Below the pieces are notes generated by a model. The model had not been told where the DNA came from, made no database searches, and saw nothing but the letters and a program-made list of their open reading frames with translations. The translations under genes and the position numbers were made by a program. DNA of 24,305 bases from a virus. The stretch is from positions 1 through 24,305 of IMG/VR virus record IMGVR_UViG_3300035670_001208; one strand, written 5' to 3'. Shown here piece by piece: positions 4,805 to 20,189 of the stretch (its first letter is position 1; each line of letters opens with the position of its first letter).

Positions 4805-5411
4805 ACAACAACCATAACAGATGTGCTACACTCACACTGCAACAGAAAAGAACTCCCACGCTGGGAAGCGTTAGAGAGAGCAAGGCTGTACACCGGTTGC
4901 ATGGTGCGGGGCATTTCACACACGGAAACGTGGGTCGATGTTTCCTGCAACCAAGAAGTACCCAAGACCGAACCTTCCCCTGTTGCGTAAGAGAAACAAG
5001 CAGCGTGAACAAACGTCATCTGTTCGTGAAAGAAAAGACTTTCTGGTGTCGGCTAAAAGAAATTGGCTACGGCGACCAACCACTCAACGTGGTGAACTGT
5101 GGGGGAAGACCAATACCGGAGACTAAATCATCAGCCACGCTCACCTTTTACTACCGCCCTCGCAAGCTCGGTTGGTCACAAAGAAGCATGGCTAACGTCA
5201 AACCACAAGCTCGGCCCAGATGCTCACTTTTCTTTTTTGTCCTTTTTTCTTTTCCAGATTAGTCGCCCACACAGAGTGGTCAGCCACCACACACAGTCAC
5301 CAGCTAGAACACCACACAAAAAGAGTGAGTCTCGGCAAATCCACTAATACAGTACCCCCCGCACGGGGCGCCTCGGCACACCCCCCGTTGAGACTCCGGC
5401 CCAGAAAATTA

Positions 5412-5615: not shown

Positions 5616-5645
5616 TTGACAAGTGTTTAACGGTTGCCCCATAAT
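5616..5645 (+). promoter_or_regulatory. Strong sigma70-type promoter for the rightward gene cluster
   Basis: A consensus -35 TTGACA (5616-5621), an 18-bp spacer and a -10 CATAAT (5640-5645, five of six) lie 43 bp before the first rightward gene. Transcription would start near 5652. No other promoter this good was noticed in the rightward block, so it likely drives all fourteen genes down to the terminator at 9862-9910. A promoter this close to consensus is typical of immediate-early phage transcription by unmodified host polymerase. Confidence 0.8.
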
Positions 5646-5687: not shown

Positions 5688-6002
5688 ATGAACACTGAAG
5701 ATCGCTATCGAGTAACAGTGTCAAGTGATTGGTTCCACATTTACGAGTCAAGCGGTATGGCCGATGATCTGATCCGTGAGGGGTTAGTAATCGAGAAAGA
5801 AACTAAGACCCGTACAACTCTCAACCTGTCTGCCGGTCACATTCAATTCTTTATTAGCGATATTGAGCGCAACGTCGAATGGTGTGAACTAGAGGCCAGC
5901 GACAAGGCACGGTGGCGTAGGGCGCTTACACGTTTTGAGAACGCCGATCTGATCGAGGAACAATGGCAACGTGACACTAACGGAGAATGGGGCACCATCT
6001 AA
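5688..6002 (+). CDS. First gene of the rightward cluster, 104 aa, unknown
   Basis: It starts at the ATG directly after the repeated GAAAGGGCAACT leader, 36 bp from the predicted transcript start, so it is the promoter-proximal and probably most abundant early product. The protein is acidic and mixed alpha/beta, with a Trp-rich, helical C-terminal half (KARWRRALTRFENADLIEEQW). An earlier in-frame ATG at 5634 lies upstream of the predicted transcript start and is rejected. No family is recognised. Its stop overlaps the next start (TAATG). Confidence 0.85.
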   Translation: MNTEDRYRVTVSSDWFHIYESSGMADDLIREGLVIEKETKTRTTLNLSAGHIQFFISDIERNVEWCELEASDKARWRRALTRFENADLIEEQWQRDTNGEWGTI

Positions 6003-6220
6003 TGCACTCAGAACACCGATCCGTAATAGAGGCCGTAGGCGGTGACCCCGCATATATCGACGCTATTGTCAAGGCCGGCGGCGAGATTATCGCCCCATTC
6101 ACCCGCCTATCCCACTTAGGTGCCTTTATCGTGCGCCTACCTAATGATTCCGTAACAGTCATCACCGCTATTTGTGGCGACTGTTCCCGCCCACGTAGCT
6201 GTTGTATCTGTCTCTATTAG
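6002..6220 (+). CDS. 72-aa protein with C-terminal cysteine cluster
   Basis: It is coupled to the previous gene by a TAATG overlap, with GGAGAATGGGGC upstream as ribosome site. The first 55 residues are a compact alpha/beta stretch (IEAVGGDPAYIDAIVKAGGE, then a beta-rich FIVRLPNDSVTVIT). The last 15 residues hold four cysteines in CGDC and CCIC, likely a metal-binding knuckle at the very C-terminus. No function is recognised. Confidence 0.78.
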   Translation: MHSEHRSVIEAVGGDPAYIDAIVKAGGEIIAPFTRLSHLGAFIVRLPNDSVTVITAICGDCSRPRSCCICLY

Positions 6221-6250
6221 AACCTGATCGGGCGGGGTGTTGCACCGCTT

Positions 6251-6263
6251 GAGAGTCACTCTC
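6251..6263 (+). other. Intercistronic hairpin GAGAGT-C-ACTCTC
   Basis: Perfect 6-bp arms around one base lie in the 94-bp gap between two small genes. Outer sequences GGGCGG (from 6229) and CCGCCC (to 6272) can add an outer stem, and a TGACC/GGTCA pair follows at about 6277-6292. There is no T-run, so a simple terminator is unlikely; mRNA processing or a stability element is possible. Confidence 0.4.
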
Positions 6264-6314
6264 TCACCGCCCACGATGACCTAACGGGGTCACATAAACA
6301 GAAAGGGGCTACTA

Positions 6315-6521
6315 ATGGCCTATTATCCACGACAACTCGATCTCGATGGGATTATTTGTGACGATTGCGGAGATGCTCGATGGCCTAGCCACTCCCACTA
6401 TGGCACCGATACAGATGCCCGCATAGCGGAGGCTAAGGTCACCGGTGTTCTTTACTGTTGGGTTCCGATCTATTCGAACACTCCTAGCCCGTGCATTATG
6501 TGCGGAACACCTACCAAATAG
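6315..6521 (+). CDS. 68-aa zinc-ribbon-like protein
   Basis: Four cysteines form two knuckles, CDDC near residue 15 and CIMC near residue 61, with several histidines between (HSHYG), consistent with one zinc site. The N-terminus MAYYPRQLDLDGIICDDCGD has the look of a treble-clef or ribbon finger. It is preceded by the repeated GAAAGGGGCTACTA leader. No known family is assigned. It belongs to the series of zinc microproteins in this cluster. Confidence 0.82.
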   Translation: MAYYPRQLDLDGIICDDCGDARWPSHSHYGTDTDARIAEAKVTGVLYCWVPIYSNTPSPCIMCGTPTK

Positions 6522-6533
6522 AAAGGGGCAGCT

Positions 6534-6716
6534 ATGAGAAATAATCAGGGCGTGCTATGGGGCGTTAATTGGGAGCGCCACAACTACGGTATTTATTGCT
6601 ACGCCATCGGCGGTAATTTTTACCTACTTAGCCGCAAGTATGTCGGCAACGGTTCCGATGTTCTTTCAGTGCGGGAATGTGTTAAACAATTCCGGCGTGA
6701 CGTATTAGGCAAGTGA
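6534..6716 (+). CDS. 60-aa protein, unknown
   Basis: A small aromatic protein: the first half is beta-rich with Trp/Tyr (VLWGVNWERHNYGIYCYAIG), the second a helix with basic residues (VRECVKQFRRDVLGK). The layout, a beta hairpin followed by a helix, recurs in other tiny phage proteins of this window (8894-9049, 9046-9213, 14430-14606). It has a GAAAGGGGCAGCT leader; its own stop lies within the leader of the next gene. No function is recognised. Confidence 0.78.
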   Translation: MRNNQGVLWGVNWERHNYGIYCYAIGGNFYLLSRKYVGNGSDVLSVRECVKQFRRDVLGK

Positions 6717-6728
6717 AAGGGGCAGCTA

Positions 6729-6926
6729 ATGCCGGTAATAGCAAACATTAGAACAGAAACGGCCGATGGCACCGCAACGCCACACCAAAAAGTGATCGGT
6801 GACGCAACACTTGCGGAGCGTTTCGCCGTTGCGATCATCGGAACAGAAACGGCCTATGGAATTGTGACCTATGTGTCATTGTTCGACAGTGATACCGCAA
6901 CGTCACTAGGGGAATGGGAACACTAG
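6729..6926 (+). CDS. 65-aa protein with internal repeat, unknown
   Basis: The protein contains a short duplicated phrase, RTETADGTAT (residues 8-17) and GTETAYGIVT (38-47), suggesting an internal tandem duplication. It is rich in Thr and Ala, acidic, and has no cysteine. It is preceded by GAAAGGGGCAGCTA. No family is recognised. A 107-bp gap with a hairpin follows. Confidence 0.72.
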   Translation: MPVIANIRTETADGTATPHQKVIGDATLAERFAVAIIGTETAYGIVTYVSLFDSDTATSLGEWEH

Positions 6927-6953
6927 ACCGATACGGGGCGGGGTTAGACCCTC

Positions 6954-6972
6954 GACAGGTTCGCCACCTGTC
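6954..6972 (+). other. Intercistronic hairpin GACAGGT-N5-ACCTGTC
   Basis: Perfect 7-bp arms around TCGCC lie in the 107-bp gap before the 173-aa gene. No T-run follows, so it is more likely an mRNA stability or processing element than a terminator. It resembles the gap hairpin at 6251-6263 in placement but not in sequence. Confidence 0.45.
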
Positions 6973-7033
6973 CGCCCACTATGCCCACAAGGGGCAGACA
7001 CCGCTACGGCGGAATACCGAAAGGGGGCCGATT

Positions 7034-7555
7034 ATGTCGGCGTATCAAGTAAACCAGGACACCATAGACCTAATGGTGTCGGTATTAGTGGAATGGGGAT
7101 CGGGGCAACGGCTCCACCCCTGGCTATATAGCTACGGTGACCAACCGACAGAACCGGAACTGACAGAACGCCTACAAGTAGGTACGTGGTTTTGTATGTT
7201 TGAGAACAACCACAACACCGCCGACGCATTAGGTCGAGAACTAATCGCTGCCAATGTGCGTAGTCTTACGGCACGGTATAGCGACGGTCTTACGATGGTT
7301 GGCTACTTTCCCGATGATTACACCTGGCGACGGGTTACGACAGATCAGGCCACCGTTGGTCAAGCTATGGGGGCGGTTAAGTGTTACCGTTACCAGTCTT
7401 GCGAGTTTGACGGGTGGCGGGGATCTTTTGCCGATGAGCTTTCTCAACGTTGCCTAGACCGTCTTGTCGATATTGTTTCTGATGGTTGGGATTATGAACG
7501 CCCCGCCACCGGCGGCAGTGTTGTTTCCATATTCGACCTAGTAGGGGAGGCGTAA
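7034..7555 (+). CDS. 173-aa protein, largest of the rightward cluster, unknown
   Basis: The ATG at 7034 follows the GAAAGGGGGCCGATT leader; the frame is open back to 6914, but that extension runs through the hairpin at 6954-6972 and lacks a ribosome site. The protein is acidic and mixed alpha/beta, with many Trp and Tyr. A central segment with WFCMFENNHNTADALGREL and the C-terminal helix (DELSQRCLDRLVDIVSDGW) suggest a folded single domain. No motif is diagnostic. It is likely an early host-interaction protein by position only. Confidence 0.82.
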   Translation: MSAYQVNQDTIDLMVSVLVEWGSGQRLHPWLYSYGDQPTEPELTERLQVGTWFCMFENNHNTADALGRELIAANVRSLTARYSDGLTMVGYFPDDYTWRRVTTDQATVGQAMGAVKCYRYQSCEFDGWRGSFADELSQRCLDRLVDIVSDGWDYERPATGGSVVSIFDLVGEA

Positions 7556-7557
7556 CG

Positions 7558-8031
7558 ATGGCGACACATACGATCGAGGCGTATACCTATCACGCTGCTA
7601 TGTTTTGCGCCCCTTGTGGAGCGACACTGCCAGAGATAGACCCAGAGGGGAACGATAGAACACCCGTTTATAGTTGGCACCTGTCGGATTTTTTTTACTT
7701 TGACGACCATATCGGCGTGATTATTCCTCAGTGTGACAAGTGTGGCCAATTCATTGGGGCTAGGTTCTCGATAGAGGCTAGAACCTGGCTAGACCGCACA
7801 TATGGAAACACCTATTATTCCCTACGCATTACCGGACACGGGCTAGACCTAGTTGTCCCTATGACCTACGGCCACGGGACACTAACGTTCCGCCACCGTG
7901 CCGCAACGGAGCTAGGTCTAAATTGGGGCGCAATGTCTCACGATCAGAGGCGGGAGATGTTTCCCGTCACTGAGTACGCCGTTACCCGTAAGCGTGACCT
8001 ACACCAACTAGAAACGGAGGCGGGGCGATGA
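7558..8031 (+). CDS. 157-aa protein with N-terminal zinc-binding cysteines
   Basis: Two knuckles, CAPC (about residues 17-20) and CDKC (about 59-62), flank a Tyr/Phe-rich stretch, giving a ribbon with a 38-residue insertion. The rest is beta-rich followed by a helical C-terminus (MSHDQRREMF). It has GGGAGGCG as ribosome site and ends in an ATGA overlap with the next gene. The family is not recognised; a nucleic-acid or protein-binding zinc domain is likely. Confidence 0.82.
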   Translation: MATHTIEAYTYHAAMFCAPCGATLPEIDPEGNDRTPVYSWHLSDFFYFDDHIGVIIPQCDKCGQFIGARFSIEARTWLDRTYGNTYYSLRITGHGLDLVVPMTYGHGTLTFRHRAATELGLNWGAMSHDQRREMFPVTEYAVTRKRDLHQLETEAGR

Positions 8032-8234
8032 GTAACCCATATAGCTACATCTACCCGTGCGAGTATTGCGGAGCCGCTAAGGGTGATCCTTGCGTATCTG
8101 GGGCGGGTATCGCCTCGCCTGCCCCTAACGGCTACCACGTGAGCCGGTACCCCGCTAACGGCTATGTTTCCGATAGTGACGGGGCGACAGTGCAATTCTT
8201 GACCAATCTAATCGTGAGGGGTGATGGCCGATGA
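8028..8234 (+). CDS. 68-aa phage-type zinc finger protein
   Basis: The N-terminal CEYCGAAKGDPC followed by a His-x-x-Arg (YHVSRYP) fits the short phage zinc-binding domain C-x2-C-x4-G-x2-C...H-x2-R, often found as a free small protein or as an add-on to helicases and primases in actinobacteriophages (recollection, not searched). Such domains are thought to bind nucleic acid. It is joined to both neighbours by ATGA overlaps, with GGAGGCGGGGCG upstream of the start. Confidence 0.85.
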   Translation: MSNPYSYIYPCEYCGAAKGDPCVSGAGIASPAPNGYHVSRYPANGYVSDSDGATVQFLTNLIVRGDGR

Positions 8235-8503
8235 GCTACCGATATAACCCAGATCTAATGGTACGCAAGCGGGTCGGCGGTTGGCAGCTCCAATGGCACC
8301 CGTCTCGACCTGGCCTCTGTTGGGCTATCCCCGAATACCTAAAAACGTTTCGCCGTTGCGAGTCGGCGGTTATGTATGACGACGGTTCTCTAGGTTGGGA
8401 TACCCAGCACGGGGTACCGCAATATGTCAAGAGCAAGGTGGCGGCGTTCATTATCGAGTGCCAACAACAACACAACACAACAACAGAAAAGGAGGCGGTC
8501 TAA
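8231..8503 (+). CDS. 90-aa protein, unknown
   Basis: The N-terminal half is basic and Trp-rich (RKRVGGWQLQWHPSRPG), the C-terminal half helical with a Gln/Asn/Thr-rich tail (ECQQQHNTTTEKEAV). It is coupled by ATGA to the preceding zinc-finger gene and by TAATG to the following zinc-ribbon gene. No family is recognised. Confidence 0.78.
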   Translation: MSYRYNPDLMVRKRVGGWQLQWHPSRPGLCWAIPEYLKTFRRCESAVMYDDGSLGWDTQHGVPQYVKSKVAAFIIECQQQHNTTTEKEAV

Positions 8504-8652
8504 TGATCACCGAAAACAACAACAAACAATGCCCCGTATGCGGCGACATTATGACTACGGAACACTCTAACTATGTTCCAGTGTGGAGCAATCTGCACGA
8601 CAACATTGTTTGCATTGACTGCAAAGAAACAACAGAAATGGAAAGGGATTAG
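8503..8652 (+). CDS. 49-aa zinc-ribbon microprotein
   Basis: CPVCG (10-14) and CIDCK (37-41) are the two knuckles of a classic zinc ribbon spanning nearly the whole protein. The start is fixed by AAAAGGAGGCGG just upstream, the best ribosome site of the cluster, and by the TAATG overlap. The fold resembles the ribbons of transcription and translation factors; the role here is unknown. Confidence 0.82.
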   Translation: MITENNNKQCPVCGDIMTTEHSNYVPVWSNLHDNIVCIDCKETTEMERD

Positions 8653-8654
8653 CG

Positions 8655-8894
8655 ATGACTAGCCAGGAATTAGCAGCGATAACGGAGCAACTATCTGCCA
8701 CGTATCGCCAACTAGAAACAACACTGAACGGCCTGCACCATCTCGATGAGGTTGGTAGTCGGTATGTCTGGCGCAAGCTTGACAATGTGCGATGGCTATT
8801 GGGTGATCTCATAGCGGATATGACCCCGACAACAGAACCGGCAGACATTGACGGGGCGGTAGCGTTCACGACAGCAGCCGAGAGGGGGCAGTAA
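8655..8894 (+). CDS. 79-aa helical protein, unknown
   Basis: Predominantly helical: residues 3-30 (SQELAAITEQLSATYRQLET and on) form a probable coiled coil, followed by a second helix VWRKLDNVRWLLGDLIADM and an acidic tail. It has no cysteine. It starts two bases after the preceding stop and is coupled to the next gene by TAATG. No family is recognised. Confidence 0.76.
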   Translation: MTSQELAAITEQLSATYRQLETTLNGLHHLDEVGSRYVWRKLDNVRWLLGDLIADMTPTTEPADIDGAVAFTTAAERGQ

Positions 8895-9049
8895 TGAACT
8901 ACGACAACGCACAAGTGTGGTCTGTCTGGGTTGGTGGCAGTGAGGTGAATTCTTACTATGTCACTAAGGCAGAGGCGCAACAGATAGCTAAGTATTGGAA
9001 AGAGCAAGGTTATCGAGACGTAGCAATTAGGCAGGAGATAGAACAGTGA
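8894..9049 (+). CDS. 51-aa protein, hairpin-helix type, unknown
   Basis: It reads MNYDNAQVWSVWVGGSEVNS, then YYVTKAEAQQIAKYWKEQGY and RDVAIRQEIEQ. The pattern is a beta hairpin (VWSVWVGGSEV..YYV), a helix starting at TKAEAQQIAKYW and a final strand (DVAIRQE), a compact beta-alpha-beta unit common among tiny phage proteins. The start overlaps the previous stop (TAATG) with GAGAGGGGGCAG upstream; the end overlaps the next GTG (GTGA). Function is unknown. Confidence 0.8.
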   Translation: MNYDNAQVWSVWVGGSEVNSYYVTKAEAQQIAKYWKEQGYRDVAIRQEIEQ

Positions 9050-9213
9050 AACACGGGGCTTTCGTTATCCCGCCTCACGGGTTGCGCCGTGTGTGGCGTG
9101 TCGAATACTACGACAAAGGCAAGTATTTAGGCCGCCACAACTACGCCAAGCAACGCCACGCCAGAGCAGAGCAGAACCTATACAACATCATCACGAAAGT
9201 GGGCAACCAATGA
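9046..9213 (+). CDS. 55-aa basic protein, unknown
   Basis: It starts at a GTG in a GTGA overlap, with AGGCAGGAGAT upstream. The protein is basic and Tyr/Arg/His-rich: two strands (RRVWRVEYYDKGKYLGRH) followed by a helix (YAKQRHARAEQNLYNII), the same strand-strand-helix plan as its neighbour and the 58-aa protein at 14430-14606. The charge would suit nucleic-acid binding. Its stop overlaps the next ATG (ATGA). Confidence 0.78.
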   Translation: MKHGAFVIPPHGLRRVWRVEYYDKGKYLGRHNYAKQRHARAEQNLYNIITKVGNQ

Positions 9214-9359
9214 CAGAGCATTTACTATTAGCGGGGTACTTCATCGTCACCCCATTGTTGATCATCATCACCGGCGTATTGTTTGACGCAATACGGGCAG
9301 TACGTCGTGAGCAACGTGCAGCGAGTCAAGGCCGACACCCCTCCCGCAAGAGGGGCTAG
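9210..9359 (+). CDS. 49-aa single-helix membrane protein
   Basis: Residues 5-26 (LLLAGYFIVTPLLIIITGVLF) form one transmembrane helix, followed by a strongly basic tail (RAVRREQRAASQGRHPSRKR) that should stay in the cytoplasm, giving N-out/C-in topology. It is coupled by ATGA to the preceding gene. It could be a superinfection-exclusion or membrane-acting early peptide; being far from the lysis genes, it is not a likely holin. Confidence 0.78.
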   Translation: MTEHLLLAGYFIVTPLLIIITGVLFDAIRAVRREQRAASQGRHPSRKRG

Positions 9360-9362
9360 GCC

Positions 9363-9563
9363 GTGGCTACTACCATTCTTTTATCTTGTGACAAGTGCGA
9401 GGGGCAAGCGTTGTACCCCGTCACCGGAACAACAACAGATGCCAGGGTCGAACACTTCAAGCACGGTTGGGTCATCGTTGTTGATCCCATTCACGGCACA
9501 ACAGACATCTGTCCAGTGTGCAGTGGGCGTGACCCCGACTATTACATAGCAGAGCCGTTCTAA
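9363..9563 (+). CDS. 66-aa zinc-ribbon protein
   Basis: CDKC (9-12) and CPVC (50-53) are the knuckles of one zinc ribbon, with a beta-rich interior (GWVIVVDPIHGTTD). The start is GTG, with GAGGGGCTAGG upstream, three bases after the preceding stop. It is coupled by TAATG to the last gene. It belongs to the zinc-microprotein series of this cluster; function unknown. Confidence 0.8.
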   Translation: MATTILLSCDKCEGQALYPVTGTTTDARVEHFKHGWVIVVDPIHGTTDICPVCSGRDPDYYIAEPF

Positions 9564-9841
9564 TGCGGTGGCTACGGTTAGCCAAGGAACGCCCACCGAA
9601 AGACCTACGGCAACCCAACCCAAGAGGGAAACTAGGCCGATCTGGTTGGGTCATCGTGCAGGAAACTATCACCGGTTCACCGTTTCGTTGGTTCTGCTAT
9701 CACAACAGTGACGTGTGGCGGTGGAGTGGCAACCCTGCACGGGCGGAAGTGTTTCCAACGAAACAAGCAGCTATCGAAGCGGTAGCTAATTGTTCGGTGC
9801 AGTATCGGAGCGTGTATCAGATACGCAACCTAGATACGTAG
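9563..9841 (+). CDS. 92-aa basic protein, last gene of the rightward cluster
   Basis: The N-terminal third is a basic Arg/Pro/Lys arm (RLAKERPPKDLRQPNPRGKL), followed by strands with Trp (GWVIVQET, RWFCYHNSDVWRW) and a helix (TKQAAIEAVAN). The folded part repeats the strand-strand-helix pattern of the tiny proteins upstream. It starts in a TAATG overlap with no good ribosome site, so translation probably depends on the preceding gene. The terminator lies 20 bp after the stop. No family is recognised. Confidence 0.78.
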   Translation: MRWLRLAKERPPKDLRQPNPRGKLGRSGWVIVQETITGSPFRWFCYHNSDVWRWSGNPARAEVFPTKQAAIEAVANCSVQYRSVYQIRNLDT

Positions 9842-9861: not shown

Positions 9862-9910
9862 GGCTCTACCTGGTGTTCCCCCTTCCGCCAGGTAGGGCCT
9901 TTTACTTTTT
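9862..9910 (+). terminator. Rho-independent terminator of the rightward cluster
   Basis: A 12-bp stem, GGCTCTACCTGG (9862-9873) with CCAGGTAGGGCC (9888-9899), has a single T-G wobble and a 14-base loop. It is followed on the plus strand by TTTTACTTTTT (9900-9910), which also covers the stop codon of the convergent whiB gene. The minus-strand side has no T-run, so termination is mainly rightward. Confidence 0.9.
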
Positions 9911-10186
9911 CCACCTAATCGGTTGCGCTACCCTCACGTGTTGATCACGTTCTTTCGGGGTCATATTCCCCCAATAGCCCTCTCGACGGCCTGTCTCCGC
10001 CTCAAAAGCGAGCTGATAGTTTAAGCATTGGAGCGTGACCGTGCAAGCGTCGCAGTATTGTTTAGCGGCGAACCAATGCACCCGTCGAACATCACCGGAG
10101 GGTATCTCAGGGAAGAAGATATCGGGGCGGTTCACGCCGTGGCAGGCACCTTTGATTTTCCAAGTGTCGTCGTGTTGTTTAGCCAC
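9902..10186 (-). CDS. whiB: WhiB-family iron-sulfur transcription regulator
   Basis: This 94-aa protein has the four conserved cysteines C15, C45, C48 and C54 (C-x2-C-x5-C), which hold a [4Fe-4S] cluster in this family, and the downstream glycine-tryptophan turn GYWGN (70-74) followed by a basic helix. WhiB proteins bind the main sigma factor and alter promoter choice, and phage copies are known to interfere with host WhiB function. The family occurs only in Actinobacteria and their phages, the best host evidence in this window. It starts at GTG, 12 bp after the preceding gene, and is the last gene of the leftward early operon, convergent with the rightward cluster. Confidence 0.92.
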   Translation of the reverse strand: MAKQHDDTWKIKGACHGVNRPDIFFPEIPSGDVRRVHWFAAKQYCDACTVTLQCLNYQLAFEAETGRREGYWGNMTPKERDQHVRVAQPIRWKK

Positions 10187-18703: not shown

Positions 18704-19116
18704 TATGGCCTCCTAAGAGAGATAGACATTAGATCAACAACAAAGAATAGTAGGCAGATTAGCAGAGATATAATCTGTAACGCACCGGATAATGTAAGGA
18801 CAACAATGATCATGCCTGCAAGTGTCCACGCTGCACCAATCAGGTGACGTACCAAACGGGACAGGACACGGCGACGCAGGGAATGTGGGCCGTTACCTAG
18901 TAGACCGATGAGATGTGTCGAGGCGACTGGTTCTTCAGCGTCAAACACAACAACGATTTCGTTGTTCAGTAAAGCTTCTTCTCCTACTTCTACCCCGATA
19001 ACAGATCTGGAGAACTCTGATATGGCGATGGCGTATCTCGGTAGGGATTTGTCTTCTTCAAAAACAATGTACGAGGTGGGTGCTTTGAAGACGGCACGAA
19101 GGAACTTCTCTATCAT
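18703..19116 (-). CDS. 137-aa protein with two C-terminal membrane helices
   Basis: The first 80 residues are soluble alpha/beta (YIVFEEDKSLPRYAIAIS...EEALLNNEIVVVFDAEEP). A basic stretch RRRVLSRLVR leads to two hydrophobic helices (about 90-108 and 112-131) with a short turn, a helical hairpin in the membrane with both ends inside. It starts by ATGA overlap with the PA14-like gene and GGGAGAAG, and ends by TAATG at the endolysin. It could be a holin or a membrane partner of the surface protein. Confidence 0.78.
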   Translation of the reverse strand: MIEKFLRAVFKAPTSYIVFEEDKSLPRYAIAISEFSRSVIGVEVGEEALLNNEIVVVFDAEEPVASTHLIGLLGNGPHSLRRRVLSRLVRHLIGAAWTLAGMIIVVLTLSGALQIISLLICLLFFVVDLMSISLRRP

Positions 19117-20189
19117 CTTCTTCTCCCATTTGTACTTGCTGTGGTGGACACCCCCGTGGTTGAGAGTGTAGCAACAGTCGCTATCTGTACGATGGCAACA
19201 GCGACCACGGTTCGGCGTTGGGATTCGGTGGCGGTGAGGGTGATTTGGAGTGGCCCGATGCCTACCTTACGGGTATATGTTTTACCATTCTGATTCGTCG
19301 TCTGAGTCGTCAGGGCTATCGAGGTGCTGGTCGTCGTTTCTATCGCCGTAGGAACGCTTAGAGATGTCTCTGAGGCGATTGTAGAGGTAGAAGTAGGGAT
19401 CGTCATAAGGGTCGTAGTCGATGAAAGCGTCGATGTTGTGGTCCGACGAGGAACCGAAGTTGAAGATGATGACACCGTAGAGAGTGACGGGCTCACCGGA
19501 AGTGTCGAACTCGGCGGAGTCGTAGTCGGCTGGAGTGAAGTCGATGTCGTCGTGGGCGGGTCGGGCAGTGTCGTCGTAGTGCTGGACAATGTTGGCGAAC
19601 TCGATGTAGATGGCTCTGTTGTAGGCGGCAGAGTGTTCGTCGTCGTCGTAGTGGTCCATACTTGAACTGTACTAAAAGCAGACGCAGGAATTATTTCCCA
19701 AGTTGCGTCAAGCATCCAATACAGTTTCACCCAAGCTCCGCCACCGTTCTCATAAAACCACAGCAACATTTGTTTCGGGACACCGTATTCAAACGGGACA
19801 GGATCACTGACAGAACCACCGCCACCTTTGTCAAACCAGTCGTAAGTAATCAGGGTGTTATCTAAATAGAGAACAGTTCCGTCATCTGCTTGCGCCATCA
19901 ACCTGACATCACACGTGCATGGTGCAGTTAGGTACGAGTCGTAGCGAACCACGAAATCTTCATACATATTGAACAACGGTTCAGCATCGAAGTTCTGATC
20001 AACTTGTACAACTTGTGTCGTACCAACTACCGGTGTTGTCGGCGGTAACGGCGGGGCGTTGTTATAGCCAAGGTTGTCATAAACCGTGACCGTGATACCA
20101 GGGTTAGGTGTTGCTTCCGATGTGGCGGCGAGGAATAAAACCGATACACCGATTAGCAGTAAAGCGTATTTAGTCTTCCGACTTTTCAC
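19113..20189 (-). CDS. Membrane-anchored PA14-like surface protein with mucin-like stalk
   Basis: The 358-aa precursor has a signal peptide (1-26), a beta-rich domain at about 30-170 with YEDFVVRYDSYLTAP and ADDGTVLYLDNTLITYDWFD resembling PA14-type sugar-binding modules, a Thr/Ser/Pro stalk (about 175-295, long TTT and SSS runs), a short folded piece (KVGIGPLQITLTATES), and a final hydrophobic helix (327-347) before NGRRR. This is type I membrane topology with the PA14 part outside the cell. The stalk is typical of actinobacterial surface proteins. The start is GTG at 20189, overlapping the holin-like gene by 20 bases. A role in receptor masking or superinfection exclusion is a guess. Confidence 0.8.
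   Translation of the reverse strand: MKSRKTKYALLLIGVSVLFLAATSEATPNPGITVTVYDNLGYNNAPPLPPTTPVVGTTQVVQVDQNFDAEPLFNMYEDFVVRYDSYLTAPCTCDVRLMAQADDGTVLYLDNTLITYDWFDKGGGGSVSDPVPFEYGVPKQMLLWFYENGGGAWVKLYWMLDATWEIIPASAFSTVQVWTTTTTTNTLPPTTEPSTSSSPTLSSTTTTLPDPPTTTSTSLQPTTTPPSSTLPVSPSLSTVSSSSTSVPRRTTTSTLSSTTTLMTIPTSTSTIASETSLSVPTAIETTTSTSIALTTQTTNQNGKTYTRKVGIGPLQITLTATESQRRTVVAVAIVQIATVATLSTTGVSTTASTNGRRR

Follow-up and report, generated by a model that had tools for sequence, protein, structure and literature searches.

Anticodon-less tRNA-like elements as candidate RNase P-type processing signals in a zinc-protein-rich early cassette of an uncultured phage

What does a run of very small genes, several of them encoding zinc-type motifs, contribute to the phage that carries it? 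This question is raised by positions 5688-9841 of the IMG/VR record IMGVR_UViG_3300035670_001208, the whole of which (24,305 bases) was analysed and is hereafter named the window. A first-pass annotation of this DNA had suggested that the cassette is a zinc-protein set for host takeover. We found in addition, in its two long gaps (6221-6314 and 6927-7033), a repeated structured RNA that goes beyond that annotation and is the more distinctive system of the region: both gaps hold one shared architecture, a tRNA-like element. The chances seem to us evenly balanced that these elements are RNase P-type processing signals, which would punctuate the early transcript of the zinc-protein cassette.

Each element consists of an acceptor-type stem (GGGCGG/CCGCCC), a small hairpin, a T-arm of 5 pairs with a loop of 7 nucleotides (nt), and a 3' ACNA end. 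Element 2, for instance, reads in order GGGCGG, a GGT-TAG-ACC hairpin, the T-arm ACAGG-TTCGCCA-CCTGT, CCGCCC and ACTA. The acceptor stem and the T-arm with its 7-nt loop are those expected of a tRNA, and the anticodon arm is absent: most copies have a spacer of 10-19 nt, where control tRNAs have one of 36-43 nt. Stacked pairs number 11 in the window and in most copies, and 12 in the cultured phage E7 (see below) and in one copy of locus L134. The 3' end is ACTA or ACGA in the window, and ACCA in L100, L104, L109, L116, L124 and others. ARAGORN found no full tRNA in the window or in 42 loci, and an intrinsic terminator was rejected on reading the sequence, as no T tract follows the stem. A search of Rfam with the tRNA-like element matched no family, and we found no description of such elements in the literature searched, which comprised open-licence papers. 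In a few cases (L107 8893-8953, L111 8654-8712), an extra arm of greater length separates the acceptor from the T-arm; these elements are perhaps intermediates towards full tRNAs.

As the folding energy of the two window gaps is only weakly above that of shuffled sequence (z -2.1 and -1.1), the case for an RNA rests on comparison. In a plain MAFFT alignment of 20 sequences, compensatory changes were present in all five T-stem pairs, and every cell was paired. When 44 sequences were fitted to a covariance model, 10 of the 11 pairs showed compensatory change and 95.7% of pair cells were kept; compensatory cells amounted to 80, compared with 19.7 in shuffles, and were far fewer when the pairing partners were slid.

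A motif scanner, which in two control phages recovered the majority of annotated tRNAs, detected 33 elements on the cassette strand in 40 loci, 1 on the opposite strand and 2 outside cassettes, for 0.7 in shuffled cassettes; these counts are not all independent, because a number of loci derive from a single contig or from contigs that are nearly identical. A covariance model, R2, found 59 copies in 71 sources, every one of known orientation being on the cassette strand, and none in D29 and Zeigle, which both carry real tRNAs. None of 35 mapped elements falls inside a called gene, though intergenic DNA makes up only 25% of the cassettes. Their median position is 9 nt past the upstream stop and 49 nt ahead of the next start (outliers include long gaps where the gene caller missed a gene), and element 1 lies 9 nt past the stop of g2 and 38 nt ahead of the start of g3 (genes are numbered as in Table 1). 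A further hairpin and a ribosome-binding site stand downstream of each element. In the cassettes of relatives, the ribosome-binding site AGAAGGGG is often placed within a short hairpin (e.g. AATCC-TAGAAG-GGATT), whichever element precedes it (L109 3866-3916, L100 9005-9055). Another conserved, hairpin-rich leader, which starts GGACTTAAGACAG and is unlike the tRNA-like element, is found ahead of gene families F19 and F24 (L110 6298-6414, L116 2193-2306, L109 964-1082).

The same places can be occupied by other signals. Matches to Hammerhead_II (RF02276) pass the Rfam gathering threshold in L104, L107, L110 and L163; in the window neither this nor any other Rfam family matched. The hammerheads of relatives are located a few bases past the previous stop and 20-23 nt ahead of the next start, a place comparable to that of the tRNA-like elements. 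Ahead of family F33 genes stands a hammerhead in L104 and L107; L061/L125/L126 have a tRNA-like element there, and L066 and L029 a promoter-like site. Upstream of family F12, a hammerhead-like element is found in L100, L111, L046 and L163, a tRNA-like element in L013, L015 and L086, and a promoter-like site in L098, whose F12 protein has its first 61 residues identical to those of L100. The L100 element was counted only as hammerhead-like, because the core motif is present but Rfam significance was not reached. Over 176 gaps, a tRNA-like element and a promoter were found together in none under a strict rule (7.2 expected, P 1e-4), and in 6 under a loose rule (12.5 expected, P 0.007). In five of these six gaps the promoter-like site is upstream of the element, and in the sixth (L159) it is downstream.

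Tentative counterparts were found in cultured phages. The best terminase matches of the window among phage records, at 25% identity, are LanE43-AprE7 (OX376640) and LanE43-AprF5 (OX376641), hereafter E7 and F5, which were isolated on 'Ca. Planktophila' (PMC10202952). On the minus strand of E7, positions 2208-2163 plus ACTA read GCCCCCC-GCCCGTATCGACGGC-GTAGG-TTCAAGA-CCTAC-GGGGGGC-ACTA; this element is flanked by small genes on either side, and terL is on the other strand. Looser versions occur in two more gaps of E7 (minus strand, near 1793 and 1432) and in two of F5. Save for one strict hit, the E7 and F5 elements were read by eye, and the strict scanner gives about 0.5 hit per strand in shuffled sequence. 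Between the E7 and F5 copies that precede an orthologous membrane-protein gene (MAKFFEIGLDRFGF...), a C-G pair is replaced by A-T in the acceptor and a G-C pair by A-T in the T-stem, both changes being compensatory. Zinc-type microproteins are present in F5 as well. As these are cultured phages with a cultured host, the idea that such elements are cut is testable.

RNase P acts on hairpins made of an acceptor stem and a T-arm, contacts a 3' RCCA and cuts some mRNAs (PMC11143913), and phage hammerheads have been proposed to split transcripts into gene-length mRNAs (PMC3088659). We propose that the elements would be transcript signals cut by host tRNA-maturing nucleases, the chief cutter being RNase P, acting 5' to the acceptor stem. 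A polycistronic early RNA would thereby give shorter mRNAs, each with a stable structure at its 5' end, upstream of the next ribosome-binding site. Among relatives, type-II hammerhead ribozymes would do the same job, or a local promoter would make cutting needless. That the elements make new 5' ends is the simplest account, because the parts read by RNase P are kept while the anticodon arm is dropped, and because they sit between a stop and a start on the strand that is transcribed, where they are swapped with self-cleaving ribozymes or promoters. Since self-cutting ribozymes occupy the same places in related phages, the phage probably cuts its early message at the elements. We are a little less inclined to extend this to freshwater actinobacteriophages at large, in which anticodon-less tRNA-like RNAs would form a modular RNase P cutting signal of early operons, evolutionarily exchangeable with hammerheads and promoters; our expectation there falls just short of even. 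If the elements are cut, the host tRNA enzyme would be a general operon-splitting tool of the phage, a bacterial counterpart of mitochondrial tRNA punctuation; ribozymes and promoters would be alternatives at the same sites, which would explain the hammerheads long noted in phage operons.

Several observations weigh against cleavage by RNase P. The window elements stack 11 pairs instead of the 12 of a tRNA and end in ACTA or ACGA instead of ACCA, and the T-loop of element 1 (GTCACTC) is non-canonical. The strict scanner passes only one of the E7 and F5 elements, and R2 does not score them. A -35-like TTGAC is present in 6 of 35 element gaps; in five it closely precedes the element, and cutting there would merely trim a leader. 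More generally, a structure in the 5' untranslated region that is not cut fits most of the same data. This is the main rival explanation, and we hold it to be rather unlikely: the elements would be structured 5' leaders, perhaps bound by a phage protein, which shield the mRNA end or tune translation of the next gene. It would account for the constant distance to the next start, for the hairpin and ribosome-binding site after each element, and for the five gaps where a promoter-like site just upstream places the element at the 5' end of the transcript. It predicts neither the tRNA-type geometry of the T-arm nor the exchange with hammerheads ahead of related genes, and does not suit L159, where the element lies upstream of the promoter-like site.

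A function in trans, in which released elements, as tRNA mimics, would titrate either a host enzyme that handles tRNAs or a defence directed at them, appears improbable to us. The acceptor and T-arm mimicry and the several copies per phage in some relatives would suit it, but most anticodon nucleases target the anticodon arm, of which the elements are devoid, and the fixed stop-to-start placement of the elements and their exchange with hammerheads and promoters point to a role in cis. Put-type antitermination uses repeated cis RNA hairpins in the early transcript, and the elements could likewise be transcription attenuators or antitermination sites of an early operon. We give this an equally low probability, as no U-tract follows the window stems, no Rfam family matches, and the T-arm covariation and tRNA geometry would be left unexplained. 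Functionless, decayed tRNA genes are the most improbable origin: no full tRNA gene exists in the 42 loci, as decay would have it, but compensatory changes maintain the pairs, and copies are confined to cassette gaps. Finally, the point of the cassette may be its zinc proteins, acting together on host transcription or translation, the RNA being incidental. This is possible, if doubtful, and is compatible with RNA processing rather than exclusive of it. The enrichment in zinc-type proteins, their invariant cysteines, the WhiB-like neighbour and the early-type promoter speak for it, but relatives carry anything from 0 to 6 motif proteins, so that no fixed set seems needed, and models of the single proteins g15 and g6 yielded no fold match.

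The zinc-type proteins deserve a description of their own. The six frames reported by the first-pass annotation (g2, g3, g7, g8, g10 and g15) are all present and carry their motifs, of the paired CxxC...CxxC type in five and a C-C-C-H phage finger in g8. Their enrichment was borne out: cassette proteins with shuffled residues gave on average 0.34 motif proteins and at most 3 in 2000 trials, against the 6 observed. With the same caller and motif rule, we found 2 of 64 and 2 of 93 small open reading frames (ORFs) in two cultured actinophages, a small control. Across about 40 relatives the number per cassette ranges from 0 to 6 (mean 2.4, 17% of genes), the window being the richest, and gene content turns over, which does not support the idea of a fixed set. 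The statement that no member could be named also needs revision: g8 matches PF24623 (Phage_zn_bind_8) with 28.9 bits for a curated cut-off of 24, and g3 and g15 form one family, linked by profile search and not by pairwise BLAST. In this family, four cysteines are invariant in 41 aligned sequences that are 23-80% identical to g15; four are also invariant in 5 sequences of the g10 family, and the g2 pattern is kept in 3 sequences. The Cys-pair N-terminal piece of g7 was found in the window copy only, its relatives in L002, L004, L013 and L015 being without it; g7 appears to be an in-frame fusion, the second domain of which is a separate gene in relatives. Assignment of g10 to the Lar restriction alleviation family (PF14354) was rejected (20.7 bits, below the cut-off of 28.6). 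Other cassettes encode additional zinc-type families, including F2, F28 and F36.

A scan of the IMG/VR collection with g15, for which a narrower alignment was used because alignment A1 was too diverse, returned 40 loci; tblastn of g15 and g6 against phage records gave no match. AlphaFold models of g15 and g6 (predicted local distance difference test scores 69 and 78) had no significant match in the PDB, so that, confidence being medium or low, the case for metal sites is drawn from the sequences. The invariant cysteines of the g3/g15 and g10 families are as expected of metal sites, and the proteins would bind zinc; they may be host-modifying binders of nucleic acids or proteins. As small, conserved and unnamed early proteins, they merit biochemical screening.

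The layout of the cassette is summarized in Table 1. It is filled by 16 contiguous small ORFs, rather than the fourteen first counted, many of which overlap by ATGA; the calls come from a simple purpose-made ORF caller, and cassette gene counts are therefore approximate. The near-consensus promoter and the single membrane peptide were recovered as described, and the early-type character of the cassette holds, given its strong promoter, tiny coupled ORFs and orientation opposite to terL and the portal gene. Promoter-like sites in the region as a whole are not more numerous than in shuffles. Conservation was found for the position of the cassette, which about 40 related contigs of uncultured phages share (8-22 called genes each), and not for its content, which varies. 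Most frames have relatives in other contigs, except g4; those of g1 and g14 are confined to one contig each. The g6 family is also encoded by quite different phages (L137-L158), on contigs of up to 79 kb.

Table 1. Position and description of the cassette features (window coordinates; aa, amino acids; E, E-value).
Feature	Coordinates	Strand	Description
Promoter-like site	5616..5645	+	TTGACA-18-CATAAT, ahead of cassette; 11/12 of sigma-70 consensus
g1	5688..6002	+	104 aa; a single contig (L004/L088) has a relative, with 88% identity
g2	6002..6220	+	72 aa; knuckle of CxxC-x7-CxC type at the C terminus, also in L002 and L070
tRNA-like element 1	6230..6276	+	R1 52.1 bits, E 9.5e-10; R2 46.5 bits
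g3	6315..6521	+	68 aa, CxxC...CxxC; distant paralogue of g15 (profile link, alignments)
g4	6534..6716	+	60 aa; no relative found
g5	6729..6926	+	65 aa; family in 9 cassettes
tRNA-like element 2	6936..6981	+	R1 66.1 bits, E 9.4e-13; found independently by motif scanner
g6	7034..7555	+	173 aa, MSAYxV family, in 14 cassettes and distant phages; without Cys-pair motif
g7	7558..8031	+	157 aa; N-terminal CxxC...CxxC piece fused to a domain standing alone in relatives
g8	8028..8234	+	68 aa, phage zinc finger (PF24623); relatives in L032, L036, L062, L070
g9	8231..8503	+	90 aa; family in 9 cassettes
g10	8503..8652	+	49 aa, CxxC...CxxC; 4 Cys invariant (n=5)
g11	8655..8894	+	79 aa; family in 12 cassettes
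g12	8894..9049	+	51 aa; family in 13 cassettes
g13	9046..9213	+	55 aa; family in 6 cassettes
g14	9210..9359	+	49 aa, membrane peptide (predicted from sequence); relative in one contig
g15	9363..9563	+	66 aa, CDKC...CPVC; most conserved zinc-type family
g16	9563..9841	+	92 aa; relatives at same cassette end, 22 loci including window

The cassette is on the plus strand, between the genes for a Dam-type methylase and a WhiB-like protein; these two and the portal, terminase, SSB and HNH genes are on the minus strand. The WhiB-like gene (9902-10186, minus strand; PF02467, 43.5 bits for a cut-off of 23.6) converges on the cassette and is kept at the same place in relatives. Together with the E7 and F5 terminase matches, it points to a host that is probably actinobacterial. 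The record is a phage fragment, as contigs that carry relatives of its terminase reach about 41 kb, and it belongs to an uncultured tailed phage with a variable early accessory operon. DNA searches of phage records with the window and with the cassette gave no match, terL was not found in GTDB genomes, and a PHROGs search with the cassette proteins returned nothing informative. The stretch that separates the Dam gene from the cassette promoter includes non-coding-looking DNA at 4870-5080 and 5267-5390 (GGTGTCGGCTAAAA...GGCnACC core), which is conserved in more than 100 fetched loci, with weak covariation on both strands, and could encode an RNA or act as an origin or packaging site. A low-complexity ORF rich in Ser/Thr (19113-20189, minus strand) lies between tail-type and lysis-type genes.

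How does this system relate to known ones? The tRNA-like element is a variation on themes already known, namely tRNA punctuation and phage hammerhead processing. As in mitochondrial tRNA punctuation, tRNA structures lie between genes and are proposed to be cut by tRNA-maturing enzymes; there they are mostly working tRNAs, whereas the phage-operon elements have no anticodon arm and would be cut by analogy. Relatives carry type II hammerheads (RF02276) between small genes of the same kind, with cutting into gene-length mRNAs as the proposed role (PMC3088659); none is present in the window, whose elements have no ribozyme core and would depend on a nuclease of the host. With model and mRNA substrates of RNase P, the window elements share the minimal parts and a 3' AC-A tail, but most elements have 11 rather than 12 stacked pairs, ACCA is found only in some, and a small hairpin replaces the D and anticodon arms. 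The tRNA-like domain of tmRNA also combines an acceptor and a T-arm without an anticodon arm; the elements, however, have no tag-coding part, match nothing in ARAGORN or Rfam, and are contiguous within an mRNA gap. On the protein side, g8 is a member of Phage_zn_bind_8 by its curated cut-off, and the other five zinc-type proteins fall in no Pfam family. The closest cultured parallels are LanE43-AprE7 and LanE43-AprF5, whose terL is only 25% identical, whose other gene families differ and whose published description (PMC10202952) does not mention tRNAs, but which share with the window the terL-to-whiB layout, small genes including zinc-type ones, and tRNA-like elements in the gaps between them.

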